Below, one piece after another: positions 34,005 through 40,378 of a DNA stretch of 64,000 nt (its first letter is position 1; the number at the start of each line of letters is the position of its first letter). The translations under genes were made by a program, and so were the position numbers. The stretch is from Comamonas odontotermitis (GTDB taxonomy: Bacteria > Pseudomonadota > Gammaproteobacteria > Burkholderiales > Burkholderiaceae_C): contig NZ_JACHKZ010000006.1 of the NCBI RefSeq assembly GCF_014207855.1, forward strand, positions 62,001-126,000. Reading direction: 5' to 3'. The notes below the pieces were generated by a model. That model was not told the origin of the DNA. It worked only from the letters and a program-made list of their open reading frames with translations, and did no database searches.

Positions 34005-36152
34005 ATGTCTCAACGAAAGCTCTTCGTCACCACCGCCCTGCCGTATGCCAACGGCAACTTCCACATCGGTCACATCATGGAATACATCCAGGCCGACACC
34101 TGGGTGCGTGCGCAACGAATGCAGGGCAATGCGGTCAACTTTGTCGGGGCCGATGACGCCCATGGCGCGCCCATCATGATTGCCGCCGAAAAAGCGGGCA
34201 AGACGCCCCAGCAGTTCGTGGCCGACATCGCTGCGGGCCGCAAGCAGTATCTCGACGGTTTTCACATCGCCTTCGACAACTGGAGCAACACCGACAGCCC
34301 CGAGAACCACGAGCTGTCCAAGCAGATCTACCTCGACCTGAAGAAGGCCGGGTTCATCGAGACGCGCACCATCGAGCAGTTCTTCGATCCCGAGAAGAAC
34401 ATGTTCCTGCCCGACCGCTTCATCAAGGGCGAGTGCCCCCGCTGCCATGCCAAAGACCAGTACGGCGACAACTGTGAGGTCTGCAGCTCGGTCTATGCGC
34501 CCACCGACCTGATCAACCCCTACTCCGCACTCTCGGGCGCCAAGCCTGTGATGAAGAGCTCCGAGCACTTCTTCTTCAAGCTCTCCGACCCGCGCGCCGT
34601 TGCGTTTCTGACCGAGTGGACGCAGGACGGCCAGCATGTGCAGCCCGAAGTAGCCGCCAAGATCAAGGAATGGTTCGGCGTGCGCACCAACCCGGACGGC
34701 ACGACCAGCGAAGGCCTGGACGACTGGGACATCAGCCGCGATGCGCCTTACTTCGGCATCGAGATTCCCGATGCACCCGGCAAGTACTTCTATGTCTGGC
34801 TGGACGCGCCCGTGGGTTACCTCGCCTCGCTCAAGAACCTTCTGAACCAGCGGGGCGAAGACTATGACGCCTATATGGCTGACCCCGATCTGGAGCAGTA
34901 CCACTTCATCGGCAAGGACATCATCACCTTCCATACGCTGTTCTGGCCCGCCATGCTCAAGTTCAGTGGCCGCAAGACGCCGACCAGGATCTGCGTGCAC
35001 GGCTTCATGACCGTCAACAACGGCGAGAAGATGAGCAAGAGCCGAGGCACCGGCCTCGATCCGCTCAAGTACCTGAGCCTGCAGATGAACCCCGAGTGGC
35101 TGCGCTACTACCTGGGCGCCAAGCTCAACGGCCGCAATGAAGACATCGACTTCAACCCCGAAGACTTCATGCTGCGCGTCAACTCCGACCTGATCGGCAA
35201 GTACGTGAACATTGCCAGCCGCGCTGCGGGTTTCCTGACCAAGCGCTTCGAAGGCAAGCTCGGTACCGTCAGCGAAGACGGCGTGGCCCTGCTGGCGGCC
35301 CTGCGCGAACAAAAGGATGCCATCGTGGCGGCCTACGAAGCCCGAGACACCGCCCGTGCCGCGCGTGAAATCATGCTGCTGTGCGACAAGGTCAACAGCT
35401 ATGTGGATGCCAACAAGCCCTGGGAACTGGCCAAGAAGGAAGGCATGGAGGCGCGCCTGCACGATGTGTCCACGACCTGCATCGAGGCCTTCCGCATTCT
35501 GACCATCTACCTCAAACCCATCCTGCCCGGCGTGGCTGCCGAGGTGGCCAACTTCCTCATCGTGCCACCCGAGACCTTTGCCGATGTGGCCAAGCCGCTC
35601 GGCCAGGGCCACCAGATTGGCGAGTACAAGCACCTGATGCAGCGCGTTGACCCCAAGCAGCTCGAAGCACTGTTTGAAGCACCGGCTGGCCAGGCCGCCC
35701 CTGCTGCCGAGGCCCCTGCCAAAGCCAAGAAGGCAGAGAAAAAAGCCGAAGCCGTGGTCGACCCAAACGCTCCCGGCGGAGAGCCGCTGGCCGAAACCAT
35801 CGGCATCGACGACTTTGCCAAGATCGACCTGCGCGTTGCCAAGATTCTGGAATGCAAGGCGGTGGAAGGCTCGACCAAGCTGCTGCAACTGACGCTGGAT
35901 GTGGGCGAAAAAGACGAAAGCGGCCAGCCCAGGACGCGCAACGTGTTCAGTGGCATCAGCAGCATGTACCAGCCCGAGCAACTGGTTGGCAAGCTGACAG
36001 TGATGGTTGCCAACCTCGCGCCGCGCAAGATGAAGTTCGGTCTGTCTGAAGGCATGGTGCTGGCGGCCAGCCATGCGGATGAAAAAGCCAACCCCGGCAT
36101 CTATGTGCTGGAGCCCTTCCCTGGCGCCGCGCCCGGCATGCGCATCCATTGA
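34005..36152 (+). CDS. metG: Methionine--tRNA ligase
   Basis: 715 residues. MetG charges tRNA-Met. The HIGH motif is FHIGHI near residue 20, the KMSKS motif is [10 protein letters not shown] near 345, and the zinc-binding knot is [17 protein letters not shown]. An Ala/Lys/Glu-rich linker (about 565-590) leads to a C-terminal EMAP-type tRNA-binding domain ([14 protein letters not shown]), which mediates dimerisation. The ATG at 34005 gives the family N-terminus [17 protein letters not shown]; the frame is open for 35 more codons upstream. Confidence 0.97.
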
Positions 36153-36547: not shown

Positions 36548-37498
36548 TTAGACGGGAACCGCCTCCTGCGGAACCGGCCATTCCTCTCCGGCGTACTCGT
36601 TGTCCGGCACCGTCTCTCCGGTGCACAGCCGGTGGCTCCACGTATCGAGCTGCACGCGCACCGATGCAGGCAGATCACCGCGCAGCTGCAGGCGCACCAG
36701 TGCGGGCTCTTCCAGGCCAAAGCGCCGCCGCTCGCCCAACGCCAGCTCGCCGCGCGCAAAGTCGGTCACCGCACGGAAAATGGCCTCGCCCGAATCGGCC
36801 ACCGCCGAGGCCACGAACACCTGCGGGTCGCGCGCCACCCAATCGAGCACATTGCCGATCTGTGCCACGCCTCGCGCGCGGCAAGCCGCCGTCACACCAC
36901 TGCGGCCACCATCGATCATGGCAAACAACACATCGGCACCAGCATCTGCCATGGTGTGGATGCACAACTCGGCCAGTTGCGGCTGGTGCTGGTGACCACA
37001 GAATTGGGTCAACAACCTCCCCTGCCAGCCTGCGGCACGCAGGCCATGCGCATAGGCTGCTCGGCCCAGCAGGCCAGGGCGCACGCGCTCGCCCGAGAAA
37101 TGCGCGGCCACGCCCGAGCGGCTGCATAACGCCGCCAGCACACCCGCCAGAAACGCGGACTGCTCCTGCTGTACCTCGTAGCGCGCCACCCGCGGCGCCT
37201 GCAGGCTGCCCTGGGTGATGGCAAAGCGCTGACCAGACCAGCGTTGCAGCGCACGCGCAACCGGCTCATCGCCCTGCCCACCATGGGCCACGATCAGATC
37301 AAACCCTTGCGCGCACAGCTGCTCCACCGCGGCCGTGCGCGCGGCTTCGTCGCGCGGCGCAATCCACAAAGGCGTGACATCGTGACCGGCAGCCAGGGCG
37401 CGCTGCACGCCCTGCAAACCTGCTTCGTTGAAGCTGCCTTGCCCCTGCGGGCCGAACAGGGCAACGGCCACCCGTGGGCGGCGAGCCAGAAAATTCAT
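36548..37498 (-). CDS. BMP-family (Med/PnrA-like) ligand-binding protein without signal peptide
   Basis: 316 residues. The N-terminus RVAVALFGPQGQGSFNEAGLQGVQRAL and the segments DLIVAHGGQGDEP and GADVLFAMIDGG show the basic-membrane-protein (BMP/PnrA) periplasmic-binding fold, which in relatives binds nucleosides. Unlike typical BMP proteins it has no signal peptide or lipobox and would be cytoplasmic as annotated. It overlaps the upstream Bug-type gene by four bases (ATGA), so the pair is co-translated. No ABC transporter genes are nearby. Confidence 0.75.
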   Translation of the reverse strand: MNFLARRPRVAVALFGPQGQGSFNEAGLQGVQRALAAGHDVTPLWIAPRDEAARTAAVEQLCAQGFDLIVAHGGQGDEPVARALQRWSGQRFAITQGSLQAPRVARYEVQQEQSAFLAGVLAALCSRSGVAAHFSGERVRPGLLGRAAYAHGLRAAGWQGRLLTQFCGHQHQPQLAELCIHTMADAGADVLFAMIDGGRSGVTAACRARGVAQIGNVLDWVARDPQVFVASAVADSGEAIFRAVTDFARGELALGERRRFGLEEPALVRLQLRGDLPASVRVQLDTWSHRLCTGETVPDNEYAGEEWPVPQEAVPV

Positions 37499-38469
37499 AA
37501 CGTCGCTCCCGTCGCCCGGGCCACACTGCCCCAGGCCGTTGATTGATCGCGCACCAGACGTGCAAACGCCTGCCGGTCCAGCGGCGGCTGCACAAAGCCC
37601 TGGGCCGTAAGGCTCTGGTGCACGCCGGTATCGGCCAGCGCCCGCTGCAGCGCTGCGTCCAGACGCTGCGCCACCGTCTCTGGCAGGCCCGCAGGTGCCG
37701 ACAGGCCCACATAGTTGTCGGCCACCAGTTGCGGCAAGCCCAGCTCGGCCACCGTTGGTACCTCGCTCGCCTGCGCCACGCGCTGTGCTGCCGTTACCGC
37801 CAGCAGTCGCACACGGCCCTCGCGGGCGAGCGGCAGGTTCTGCGGCAATGCATCAATGGCCAGCGGAATATGGCCTGCCAGCAGGTCCGAGCGCATGGGC
37901 CCTGCGCCCCGGTAGGGTACATGCGCCAATTGCAAGCCCTGCAGGCGTGCGAGCTCCGCTCCCACCAGGTGCCCCACCGACGCTGCCCCGCCACTGCCAT
38001 AGGGCACGGCCTGCGGCTGGCTGCGCAACCATTGCACCAATTCGGCAAAGCTGTGCACCGGCAAATCCTGCCGAACCACCAGTACGGTGGGAACCGAGCC
38101 GATGTAGCCCAGGTGCGTGAAGCTGTGCGCGGCGTCATAGGGAGGGCGCGCCATCAGGTGCGGCGAGATCGACAGCGCCGCCGAATTGGACAGCAGCAGC
38201 GTGTAGCCATCGGGTGCACTGCGAGAAACGGCCTGTGCTCCCAGCGTGGAGCCTGCACCGGGCCGGTTGTCGATGACCACCGGCTGGCCAAGCTGGGCCG
38301 ATAACAAGGGTGCCAGCAGGCGCGCAGCGATATCGCTGGCGCCGCCCGGCGGGAAAGTCACCACCAGCCGAATCGGCTTGCGCGGCCATTCGGCCGGAGC
38401 AGCCTGCGCGGCGCACAAGGCGGGTAGCGCGGCCAGGGCGCCCATCAACAAATGGCGGCGGTGCAGCAT
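37495..38469 (-). CDS. Bug/TctC-family periplasmic substrate-binding protein
   Basis: 324 residues. Signal peptide MLHRRHLLMGALAALPALCAAQA precedes the Bug fold: WPRKPIRLVVTFPPGGASDIAARLLAPLLSAQLGQPVVIDNRPGAGS is the standard opening, and PYGSGGAASVGHL and YRGAGPMRSDLLAGHI follow. These proteins bind carboxylates or related small molecules; many lack a cognate transporter, which is common in Comamonadaceae. The ATG at 38467-38469 starts the signal peptide. It is divergent from the SulP leader. Confidence 0.9.
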   Translation of the reverse strand: MLHRRHLLMGALAALPALCAAQAAPAEWPRKPIRLVVTFPPGGASDIAARLLAPLLSAQLGQPVVIDNRPGAGSTLGAQAVSRSAPDGYTLLLSNSAALSISPHLMARPPYDAAHSFTHLGYIGSVPTVLVVRQDLPVHSFAELVQWLRSQPQAVPYGSGGAASVGHLVGAELARLQGLQLAHVPYRGAGPMRSDLLAGHIPLAIDALPQNLPLAREGRVRLLAVTAAQRVAQASEVPTVAELGLPQLVADNYVGLSAPAGLPETVAQRLDAALQRALADTGVHQSLTAQGFVQPPLDRQAFARLVRDQSTAWGSVARATGATL

Positions 38470-38582
38470 GGATGGCAAATCCTCCAGAGAAAGCCGCCAT
38501 GCTACGAAGGCAGCGACTTCGGCACAAATGCGAATTTCGGCTATCGATCTGCAAAAATCTTCGGGTGTACACTGATTCAGCC

Positions 38583-38669
38583 ATGTCTCATGCACTGATC
38601 CTGCCGCTGTCGCGCCGCAGGCGTTTCATCACCCGGCTGCACCATTGCGGCCCTCCGGCGAAGTCCTGA
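38583..38669 (+). CDS. 28-codon leader peptide upstream of the SulP permease
   Basis: MSHALILPLSRRRRFITRLHHCGPPAKS: an ORF with four Arg codons in a row (including AGG), then His-His-Cys-Gly-Pro-Pro and a stop. It lies wholly upstream of and in another frame from the permease. A possible -10 element TACACT (38568-38573) is about 10 bp before the ATG, so the mRNA may be nearly leaderless. I see no strong ribosome-binding site. The bases directly after the Cys codon can pair with the permease ribosome-binding site, suggesting a regulatory leader. Confidence 0.6.
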   Translation: MSHALILPLSRRRRFITRLHHCGPPAKS

Positions 38670-38707
38670 ACCCCCTGCGTTTCAGTTCCACTTCTCCGGA
38701 GGTCAGA
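38652..38707 (+). promoter_or_regulatory. Hairpin that hides the SulP ribosome-binding site
   Basis: Left arm CCTCCGG (38652-38658) pairs perfectly with CCGGAGG (38696-38702), which contains the Shine-Dalgarno GGAGG. GAAGT (38660-38664) pairs with ACTTC (38690-38694), and CTGAA (38666-38670) with TTCAG (38681-38685). The left arm is made of the last codons of the leader ORF, directly after its Cys codon at 38646-38648. Free GGAGG is five bases from the TTG start at 38708. Confidence 0.6.
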
Positions 38708-40378
38708 TTGCACGTTCCTTTTTCATTCAGGCCGCGCCTCTTTGCGGCCTTGCGCGGCTATGACCGCACCCGTTTTCTGCAGGACCTGGGCGCTGGCCTC
38801 ACGGTCGCTGTGGTTGCCCTGCCGCTGGCGATGGCCTTTGCCATCGCCTCGGGCCTCAAACCCGAGGCGGGCCTCTTCACCGCCATCATTGCGGGTTTCC
38901 TGATTGCGCTGCTTGGCGGCAGTCGGGTACAGATCGGCGGGCCCGCTGGCGCCTTCATCGTCATCGTCTACGGCATCGTGCAACAGTATGGTGTGGCCAA
39001 TCTGATCATTGCCACAGCACTGTCTGGCGTGCTGCTGTTCGTTATGGGGTTGCTGCGGCTGGGCACATTGGTTCGTTTCATTCCAGTGGCGGTCATCATC
39101 GGCTTTACCAACGGTATTGCGGTGCTGATTGCACTGTCGCAGGTCAAGGACTTCCTGGGTCTTTCCATCCCCAAGATGCCGGGCGATTTCTTCGGCATCC
39201 TGGGGGCGCTGGGCAACCATCTGTCCACCATCAACCCCTGGGCCACCGGCGTCGCCGTGGTGTCGCTCACCGTGGTCGTGGGCTGGCAGCGCTGGCTGCC
39301 TGCAGCAGCGGGGAAAAGCGCCGGCATGGGGCGCTGGGCTGCACGGCTCGGCCGGGTGCCGGGCTCCATTGTTGCGCTGGTATTGACCACGGCCGTAGTG
39401 GCTGGCTTTGGATTGCCGGTGGAGACCATCGGCAGCCGTTTTGGCGGCATACCGGCGGCGCTGCCCGAACTCACGCTGCCAGCCTTCAGCTGGGAATCTG
39501 CGCGCTTTCTGCTGATGCCCACCATCACGCTGGCCTTGCTGGGTGCCATCGAGTCGCTGCTGTGCGCCCGTGTGGCCGACGGCATGATCGGTGACCGCCA
39601 TGACCCCAACCAGGAGCTGATGGCGCAGGGCATTGCGAATTTCGTCACGCCCTTCTTCGGCGGCATGCCCGCCACCGGCACCATTGCGCGAACGGTGACC
39701 AATGTGAAAAGTGGTGCTACCAGCCCCGTCGCCGGCATGGTGCACGCGTTGGTTCTGCTCTTGGTGATCCTGGTGGCGGCGCCGCTGGCCGCATCCATTC
39801 CGCTGGCCACGCTGGCTGCCATCCTGATGTTCGTGGCCTGGAACATGGGCGAGTGGCGCGAGTTCGCACGGCTCAGGACCTATCGCCTGCCTTATCGCAT
39901 CACGCTGGTGTCAGTCTTTTTGCTGACCGTGGTGTTCGATCTGACGGTCGCCGTGGAGTTCGGCATCTTTGCTGCCTGCATCACCTTCATCTACCGCATC
40001 TCCAGCCTCTCGCGTGCCGAACGCCTGACGGCCGCCGAGCAGCCCTTGCTGGTGGGGCTTGATGAACAGGTTCAGGTCTGGCGGCTTTATGGCGCCATCT
40101 TCTTTGGTGCAACCAAGCTGATCGAATCGCTCGAAGACCATCTGCCCGCGCGGGCATTGGTGGTGGATCTGAAGAATGTGATCTACGTGGACTCGACCGG
40201 CGGCGAGGCGCTCGAAGCGCTCAGCAAGGCCTGCAACGCGCACCGGGTGCGGCTCGTGGTCTCGGGCCTGGTGGGCCAGCCGCTCGACATCGCCCGGCGC
40301 ACCGGTCTGTACGAGCGGCTGCAGGCTGATCTGCAGCCCGATGTGGCAAGCGCCACGGCCGCTGCCGTGGCGACCTGA
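38708..40378 (+). CDS. SulP-family anion permease with STAS domain
   Basis: 556 residues. About ten to twelve hydrophobic helices carry the SulP signatures VALPLAMAFAIASGLKPEAGLFTAIIAGFLIALLGGS near the start, and a STAS domain lies at the C-terminus (about 440-540) with VDLKNVIYVDSTGGEALEAL. SulP proteins import sulfate or other anions such as bicarbonate. The start is set at TTG 38708 because GGAGG precedes it by five bases; no ATG fits. Its expression is probably controlled by the upstream leader ORF and hairpin, which supports sulfate as the substrate. Confidence 0.88.
   Translation: MHVPFSFRPRLFAALRGYDRTRFLQDLGAGLTVAVVALPLAMAFAIASGLKPEAGLFTAIIAGFLIALLGGSRVQIGGPAGAFIVIVYGIVQQYGVANLIIATALSGVLLFVMGLLRLGTLVRFIPVAVIIGFTNGIAVLIALSQVKDFLGLSIPKMPGDFFGILGALGNHLSTINPWATGVAVVSLTVVVGWQRWLPAAAGKSAGMGRWAARLGRVPGSIVALVLTTAVVAGFGLPVETIGSRFGGIPAALPELTLPAFSWESARFLLMPTITLALLGAIESLLCARVADGMIGDRHDPNQELMAQGIANFVTPFFGGMPATGTIARTVTNVKSGATSPVAGMVHALVLLLVILVAAPLAASIPLATLAAILMFVAWNMGEWREFARLRTYRLPYRITLVSVFLLTVVFDLTVAVEFGIFAACITFIYRISSLSRAERLTAAEQPLLVGLDEQVQVWRLYGAIFFGATKLIESLEDHLPARALVVDLKNVIYVDSTGGEALEALSKACNAHRVRLVVSGLVGQPLDIARRTGLYERLQADLQPDVASATAAAVAT

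Follow-up and report, generated by a model that had tools for sequence, protein, structure and literature searches.

A conserved Cys-Gly-Pro-Pro leader peptide upstream of SulP permease genes in Burkholderiales, a putative nascent-chain arrest element

A short open reading frame (ORF) upstream of a SulP permease gene in Comamonas odontotermitis probably encodes a leader peptide whose nascent chain arrests the ribosome and in this way controls translation of the permease, with a logic like that of SecM and a Cys-Gly-Pro-Pro end. The locus lies in a stretch of 64,000 nucleotides (contig NZ_JACHKZ010000006.1, positions 62,001 to 126,000), here called the window, and its features are collected in Table 1. 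An earlier note, made from the letters of the window, had described the leader ORF and its potential to hide the ribosome-binding site of the permease, and all of its coordinates proved correct base for base when checked against the window sequence. Both elements are borne out by comparison with relatives, where the arms of the hairpin coevolve and SulP genes lacking the leader show no such pairing. The ORF, which the note proposed to seek upstream of sulfur genes, was found at 66 distinct loci in front of SulP permeases (83 entries before duplicates were dropped), but also upstream of an unrelated hydrogenase-4-like complex in five more. Taken across genomes, the comparison indicates that the leader is real, conserved and not a product of chance.

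Table 1. Features of the leader and permease locus in the window.
Feature	Position	Strand	Remarks
metG (presumed; named by sequence)	34005..36152	+	2.4 kb from leader in window; close upstream in many relatives
-10-like box TACACT	38568..38573	+	ends 9 nt before leader ATG
Leader ORF, 28 codons/28 aa	ATG 38583 to TGA 38669	+	peptide MSHALILPLSRRRRFITRLHHCGPPAKS
Conserved core LSRRRRFITRLHHCGPP, putative arrest sequence	38607..38657	+	from codon columns and pN/pS
Single Cys codon TGC	38646..38648	+	
Gly-Pro-Pro codons GGC CCT CCG, putative stall site	38649..38657	+	kept in 66/66 loci
Left arm of sequestering hairpin (anti-Shine-Dalgarno) CCTCCGG-C-GAAGT	38652..38664	+	
Stem partners	CCTCCGG 38652-38658 with CCGGAGG 38696-38702; GAAGT 38660-38664 with ACTTC 38690-38694		
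Inner helix, left side CTGAA	38666..38670	+	
Inner helix, right side TTCAG	38681..38685	+	
Right arm ACTTC-T-CCGGAGG	38690..38702	+	
Shine-Dalgarno GGAGG of SulP	38698..38702	+	ends five bases 5′ of TTG 38708
SulP permease with STAS domain, TTG start, 556 aa	38708..40378	+	

The leader stop ends 38 nt 5′ of the permease start in the window. Two leader peptides searched against Pfam and NCBIfam gave no match, and the leader peptide likewise lacks the Pfam DUF2946 domain of CruR. Rfam 15 gave a single match in window positions 38200-39200, sub-threshold, at chance level and on the opposite strand inside SulP, and nothing up to E 0.1 in 20 relatives. Sites resembling a Shine-Dalgarno (SD) sequence are rare before the leader ATG (5 of the 52 loci with a single ATG), and a TANNNT box 4-12 nt before the ATG occurs in 17 of these 52 loci against 0.3 expected, which suggests a nearly leaderless mRNA start for the leader ORF in this branch; the TACACT box of the window has no -35 match, no SD and no full sigma-70 consensus match. 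The permease of the window carries the Pfam domains PF00916 and STAS, and its NCBIfam scores are all below the cut-offs (DauA, 464.5 against 614; sulP, 346.1 against 380.45; BicA, 265.3 against 880).

When 399 genomes from the family of the window were searched with a profile of eight leader peptides, at least 51 matched at E<=1e-4, the window's own genome counted, and the gene 3′ of the leader in these 51 is SulP in 47 (by blastx) and a hydrogenase-4-like operon in four. Such per-genome matches are lower bounds and absences are soft; one genome (G063) falls outside the listed profile matches and was found through its SulP gene. Family matches with E between 1e-4 and 0.0017 are mixed, four lying before SulP (G170, G332, G356 and G296) and one before a hydrogenase-like operon (G121), and the remaining three (G229, G250 and G243) look like chance matches. 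Among 349 genomes of the order, at least four outside the family carry the leader, in each case before SulP (L183-L186), one of these genomes (G726) being 87% complete with 7% contamination. Five further order-level matches (L187-L191; E 0.0018-0.0078), in which no SulP start was found, were taken as chance. The search of 274 genomes of the class gave no convincing match among the matches listed, the three weak ones besides the window (E 0.0018-0.0042; no SulP start) also being taken as chance, and tblastn of the 28-aa peptide against a plasmid collection gave no match.

Close SulP genes occur on 80 named contigs, in 78 of which the gene start is present, and 12 of these 78 bear the leader (six Achromobacter, one Comamonas and five other Burkholderiales records). 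In a sample of 150 genomes of the family, the leader is present in 17 of the 77 SulP orthologues, counted as SulP at >=53% identity with the gene start included; the prevalence counts leave out L022/G123, L097 and L102, where the gene start is missing, and the partial G104. Most SulP orthologues are therefore without a leader, and conservation of the ORF alongside the permease, by which the earlier note had proposed to judge its idea, is seen in part only: the ORF is strongly conserved where present but is carried by this minority of orthologues. HMM scores of the SulP-upstream regions are bimodal (>=29 or <=3.3), the single intermediate score of 13.9 belonging to a His-Gly-Pro-Pro variant, the SulP locus of G063 (L016). 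In a tree of 147 SulP rows, of which 65 carry the leader, its presence needs 14 changes against approximately 48 for shuffled labels, suggesting that the leader is inherited, with repeated gain or loss; eight of the 14 changes are forced by well-supported branches. The SulP protein of the window is nearer to six Achromobacter SulP proteins than to other sampled rows and groups with them (seven leader-bearing rows, support 100). Leader and permease may have been transferred together.

Across the 66 SulP-linked loci the leader shares a core of 16 codons, (S/T)RRRRFI(A/T)RLHHCGPP, in which Gly-Pro-Pro is kept in all loci, the second His in 65 and the Cys in 63. The wobble positions of Gly-Pro-Pro vary freely while the amino acids stay invariant, with Gly encoded by GGC (23), GGA (18), GGG (14) or GGT (11) and the first Pro by CCT (33), CCG (15), CCA (11) or CCC (7). 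The pN/pS ratio is 0.29 in the core, compared with 1.06 in the six codons after Gly-Pro-Pro and 1.11 in the eight codons before the core, and exceeds 1.6 when the core region is read in either other frame. In the last five core codons (HCGPP) changes are almost only silent (pN <=0.05, pS 0.49-1.14). At the level of codon substitution, these patterns demonstrate selection on the leader as a peptide, and they agree with the remark in the earlier note that the Arg run and Pro-Pro may slow ribosomes. The constraint stops exactly at the second Pro. Such an endpoint is expected of arrest at Pro-Pro, but not of a Cys-codon stall, a DNA-binding site or an element selected purely as RNA.

Predicted folding in the window is, taken alone, only moderately unusual (38577-38720: -48.7 kcal/mol, z -2.54, one of 200 shuffles as stable; 38640-38713: z -2.47, four of 200); the case rests on relatives. 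Duplex energies were computed between the stretch at and after Gly-Pro-Pro and the stretch before the permease start in 62 of the 66 loci, four being dropped because Gly-Pro-Pro lies more than 75 nt away. Own arm pairs average -19.8 kcal/mol against -15.0 (sd 0.38) for permuted pairs, and none of 5000 permutations reached the observed value. Related sequences inflate such a permutation test, and it was therefore repeated with one row per cluster, leaving 19 rows since 43 of the 62 loci fall in one single-linkage cluster; own pairs again paired more strongly (-18.25 against -13.93 kcal/mol; 0/2000 permutations). The same test on SulP genes without the leader (79 of 82 rows, three being dropped) gave no pairing signal, with -11.1 kcal/mol for own and -11.3 for permuted arms. 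Furthermore, the pairing registers shift together, as in L011 (CCTGCG/CGCAGG), L017 (CCAGGCA/TGCCTGG) and L121 (CTCTCCT/AGGAGAG). Locus by locus, own arms outdo 95% of foreign arms in 23 of the 62, and in six (L050, L139, L101, L185, L160 and L130) at least half of the foreign arms pair equally well. Judged by predicted pairing, these comparisons demonstrate that the arms coevolve, as the earlier note had expected of relatives, and sequestration of the permease ribosome-binding site by the hairpin is a well-supported prediction.

In the mechanism that we propose, the leader peptide would act in cis on the translation of SulP. On free mRNA, as coevolution and folding show, the permease ribosome-binding site is masked by pairing with the codons from Gly-Pro-Pro onward. 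The nascent RRRRFITRLHHCGPP would most likely slow or stop its own ribosome once Gly-Pro occupies the P site and Pro the A site. The paused ribosome would cover the left arm, the hairpin would open and the permease would be translated, although the geometry is modelled and the relief partial; a relieved pause, or a leader left untranslated, would let the hairpin close. The distance from Gly-Pro-Pro to the permease start, which was located by aligning with the SulP protein of the window, is 40-73 nt in 62 of the 66 loci and 95-144 nt in the remaining four, and the leader stop wanders, passing the permease start in 46 of the 66 and being out of frame with the permease in all 46. At the putative pause the peptide would be 25 residues long in the window and 21-37 in relatives, taking the nearest in-frame ATG as the leader start. 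It is too short to extend far beyond the exit tunnel, and since it would lie mostly within it, the cue is probably sensed at the ribosome itself.

The modelled cost of opening the start region, computed after the unpaired-probability result had been seen, averages 12.2 kcal/mol on free mRNA (62 loci), and is 7.7 kcal/mol with a ribosome at Pro-Pro (first Pro in the P site), 8.9 with Cys in the A site, 11.7 and 12.5 with the ribosome further upstream and 9.0 when the intervening bases are shuffled; even the opened region thus still costs 7.7 kcal/mol. The relief exceeds 5 kcal/mol in 26 of the 62 loci at Pro-Pro and in 17 at Cys. The probability that the SD is unpaired, obtained for 57 of the 62 loci as five want a recognisable SD, is 0.11 on free mRNA. 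A ribosome at Pro-Pro raises it to 0.19 and one with Cys in the A site to 0.22; shuffling of the intervening bases alone yields 0.21. In 51 loci the free value is under 0.3, and in none of these does it come to exceed 0.6. Release of the SD by a paused ribosome is as such partial in the model. Occupancy modelling does not separate a Pro-Pro from a Cys stall, the opening cost slightly favouring the former and the unpaired probability the latter.

The trigger proposed in the earlier note, a scarcity of Cys-tRNA that would stall the ribosome at the TGC codon, uncover the permease site and raise sulfate uptake, is unlikely. Retention of Cys in 63 of the 66 SulP-linked loci, the values modelled for Cys in the A site (8.9 kcal/mol; 0.22) and the occurrence of sulfate transporters in the SulP family are consistent with it, but there is a single Cys codon instead of the series of Cys codons expected of a cysteine attenuator, and it is replaced in three SulP-linked loci (His in L016, Ser in L169, Gly in L170) and in two of the five hydrogenase-type loci (Asn in L161, Ser in L166). 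A stall at the Cys codon would not need the invariant Gly-Pro-Pro that follows it, which is kept as amino acids together with the preceding Arg run. Nor does the hydrogenase-like operon have an evident sulfur role, and the note's label of a sulfate-type permease is not secured, as the sub-cut-off NCBIfam scores for DauA, sulP and BicA leave sulfate specificity unproven; attenuation of the transcriptional type is further opposed by the lack of an intrinsic terminator in 38440-38760. Mycobacterial polycysteine attenuators have a leaderless start and cysteine codons, and the present leader shares with them a Cys codon and, it would appear, such a start, but its one Cys codon is not invariant whereas Gly-Pro-Pro is. 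It is quite improbable that plain translational coupling, in which any passing ribosome melts the hairpin and the peptide sequence is unimportant, accounts for the arrangement. The hidden site and the position of the window's leader stop, 38 nt before the permease start, would suit such coupling; the strong amino-acid-level conservation that ends exactly at Pro-Pro, and a leader stop whose position is not conserved, do not.

A paused ribosome could also, instead of or besides opening the hairpin, block Rho-dependent termination. CruR (DUF2946), encoded by a copper-related upstream ORF of Bordetella, acts through Rho with arrest at a C-terminal RAPP, according to the available text of its description (PMC9426467), and no intrinsic terminator-like site was found in 38440-38760 of the window. 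For Rho control alone, however, a coevolving SD hairpin would be superfluous, and we hold this read-out to be very unlikely. CruR resembles the present leader in that an xxPP arrest motif (putative here) lies ahead of a transport gene; it is described, in the same text, as a predicted exported protein of 145 residues with CxxC and RAPP, compared with the 28 aa, one Cys and SD hairpin seen here. There is hardly any likelihood that the leader encodes a small protein with a function in trans and only happens to lie before the permease: selection at the peptide level would be expected of such a protein too, but the residues after Gly-Pro-Pro are unconserved, the spacing to the next start is fixed and the hairpin occurs only where the leader is present. 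Nascent-chain arrest at Pro-Pro remains the reading that we prefer, and it can be compared with known arrest peptides.

TnaC, SpeFL and ErmCL are very short leaders in which arrest occurs inside the tunnel and the downstream gene is induced; the leader described here shares their shortness but differs in motif, target genes and cue. A closer likeness is to SecM-secA and the RGPP/RAPP leaders, which are also upstream ORFs with a conserved x-G/A-P-P motif and an SD hidden in a stem, and here too the downstream SD is predicted to be sequestered by a stem overlapping the putative arrest site. In SecM and an RGPP leader, as far as the accessible text of the survey describes, the stem is opened and the SD freed by the stalled ribosome (PMC10987492); the motif list in that text also has HGPP and TGPP, so that other first residues have a precedent, and no CGPP was seen in it. 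RAPP peptides are described as stalling with Pro in the A site (PMC10951233, in the text available), and the Arg of the RAP motif as irreplaceable in ApcA, ApdA and ApdP in the available portion of a further paper, which cites HGPP within arrest sequences from random screening (PMC12992588). The motif of RAPP-like (RQH) leaders, R/Q/H-A/G-P-P, is matched by a single locus (L016, His-Gly-Pro-Pro), the first position being otherwise Cys (63 of the 66), Ser (one) or Gly (one), and with Cys in place of the RAP Arg a stall would be weaker or rely on other chemistry. Gly-Pro-Pro is often not near the C-terminus, as the ORF passes the permease start in 46 of the 66 loci. A localisation signal in the N-terminal portion is a further mark of RAPP-like leaders; the leader of the window is an Arg-rich peptide of 28 aa. 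RAPP-like leaders stand before sec and yidC genes (secA, secDF or yidC), whereas the at least 51 strong matches here head SulP (47) or the hydrogenase-4-like complex (four). The leader would appear SecM-like in anatomy, yet by motif and target it falls outside the RAPP-like family.

The literature searched, largely open-access, covered SulP leaders, cysteine and sulfate upstream ORFs, betaproteobacterial arrest peptides, polycysteine attenuators and RAPP, as well as SulP/Dab and Gly-Pro-Pro leaders in Achromobacter or Comamonas, and gave no description of the HCGPP leader among the matches listed. On comparative-genomic grounds, the observations argue for a family of arrest peptides of which that literature gave no account; its members end in Cys-Gly-Pro-Pro without the Arg held to be irreplaceable in the studied RAPP peptides and head transport and ion-pumping genes, not secretion genes.

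The five hydrogenase-type loci are L153, L154, L161, L162 and L166, the last with a weaker profile match (E 4.1e-4) and the other four within E<=1e-4; L255-L259 cover these five. Matches to hydrogenase 4 subunits B and F and to NuoH-, NuoC/D- and NuoB-like subunits were obtained in family searches run on L257 (which covers L166), with scores below the curated cut-offs, and the other four operons are homologous to it (69-77% identity of the first gene). By eye, the large subunit in L257 has no obvious Ni-binding CxxC pair near its start. A start codon at Gly-Pro-Pro+45 to +50, matching the SulP spacing, is present in L153, L154, L161 and L166, and none was found at the expected distance in L162. 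In those four loci it opens a small ORF of 19-24 aa (for example MKSFSPPFASLTCVLPGQP); its stop overlaps the initiation codon that follows, which belongs to the next gene or to a further short ORF. This second small ORF is perhaps a relay ORF or a relic of a lost gene start.

Two of the five hydrogenase-type genomes, G121 and G135, were included in the SulP survey and have no close SulP; the leader before a hydrogenase-like operon in such genomes suggests that it serves something that both systems share. The same leader before two unrelated systems offers a route to the substrate of this SulP group. The pairing of SulP with a NuoL-type complex recalls, by analogy, how inorganic carbon is taken up through BicA-like and NDH-1/DAB-like routes. 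A speculative and rather unlikely extension is that the peptide is an in-ribosome nascent-chain sensor for the ion of its target, such as bicarbonate/CO2 or sulfate; if true, a single sensor would serve both the SulP permease and the NuoL-type complex, which pumps protons.

Of 65 loci, 37 have the presumed metG upstream of the leader and in the same orientation. The metG stop and the leader ATG share bases as TGATG in L028, L031, L120 and L131, which suggests that in these loci the leader is co-transcribed with the methionyl-tRNA synthetase gene and coupled to it. Placement of the hydrogenase-like operon at the metG locus was considered and rejected, metG being upstream in one of the five loci (L259). 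In the window, two minus-strand genes (36548-38500), by eye encoding BMP-type and TctC-type binding proteins, stand between metG and the leader; as metG and the leader adjoin in many relatives, this gene pair looks like an insertion.
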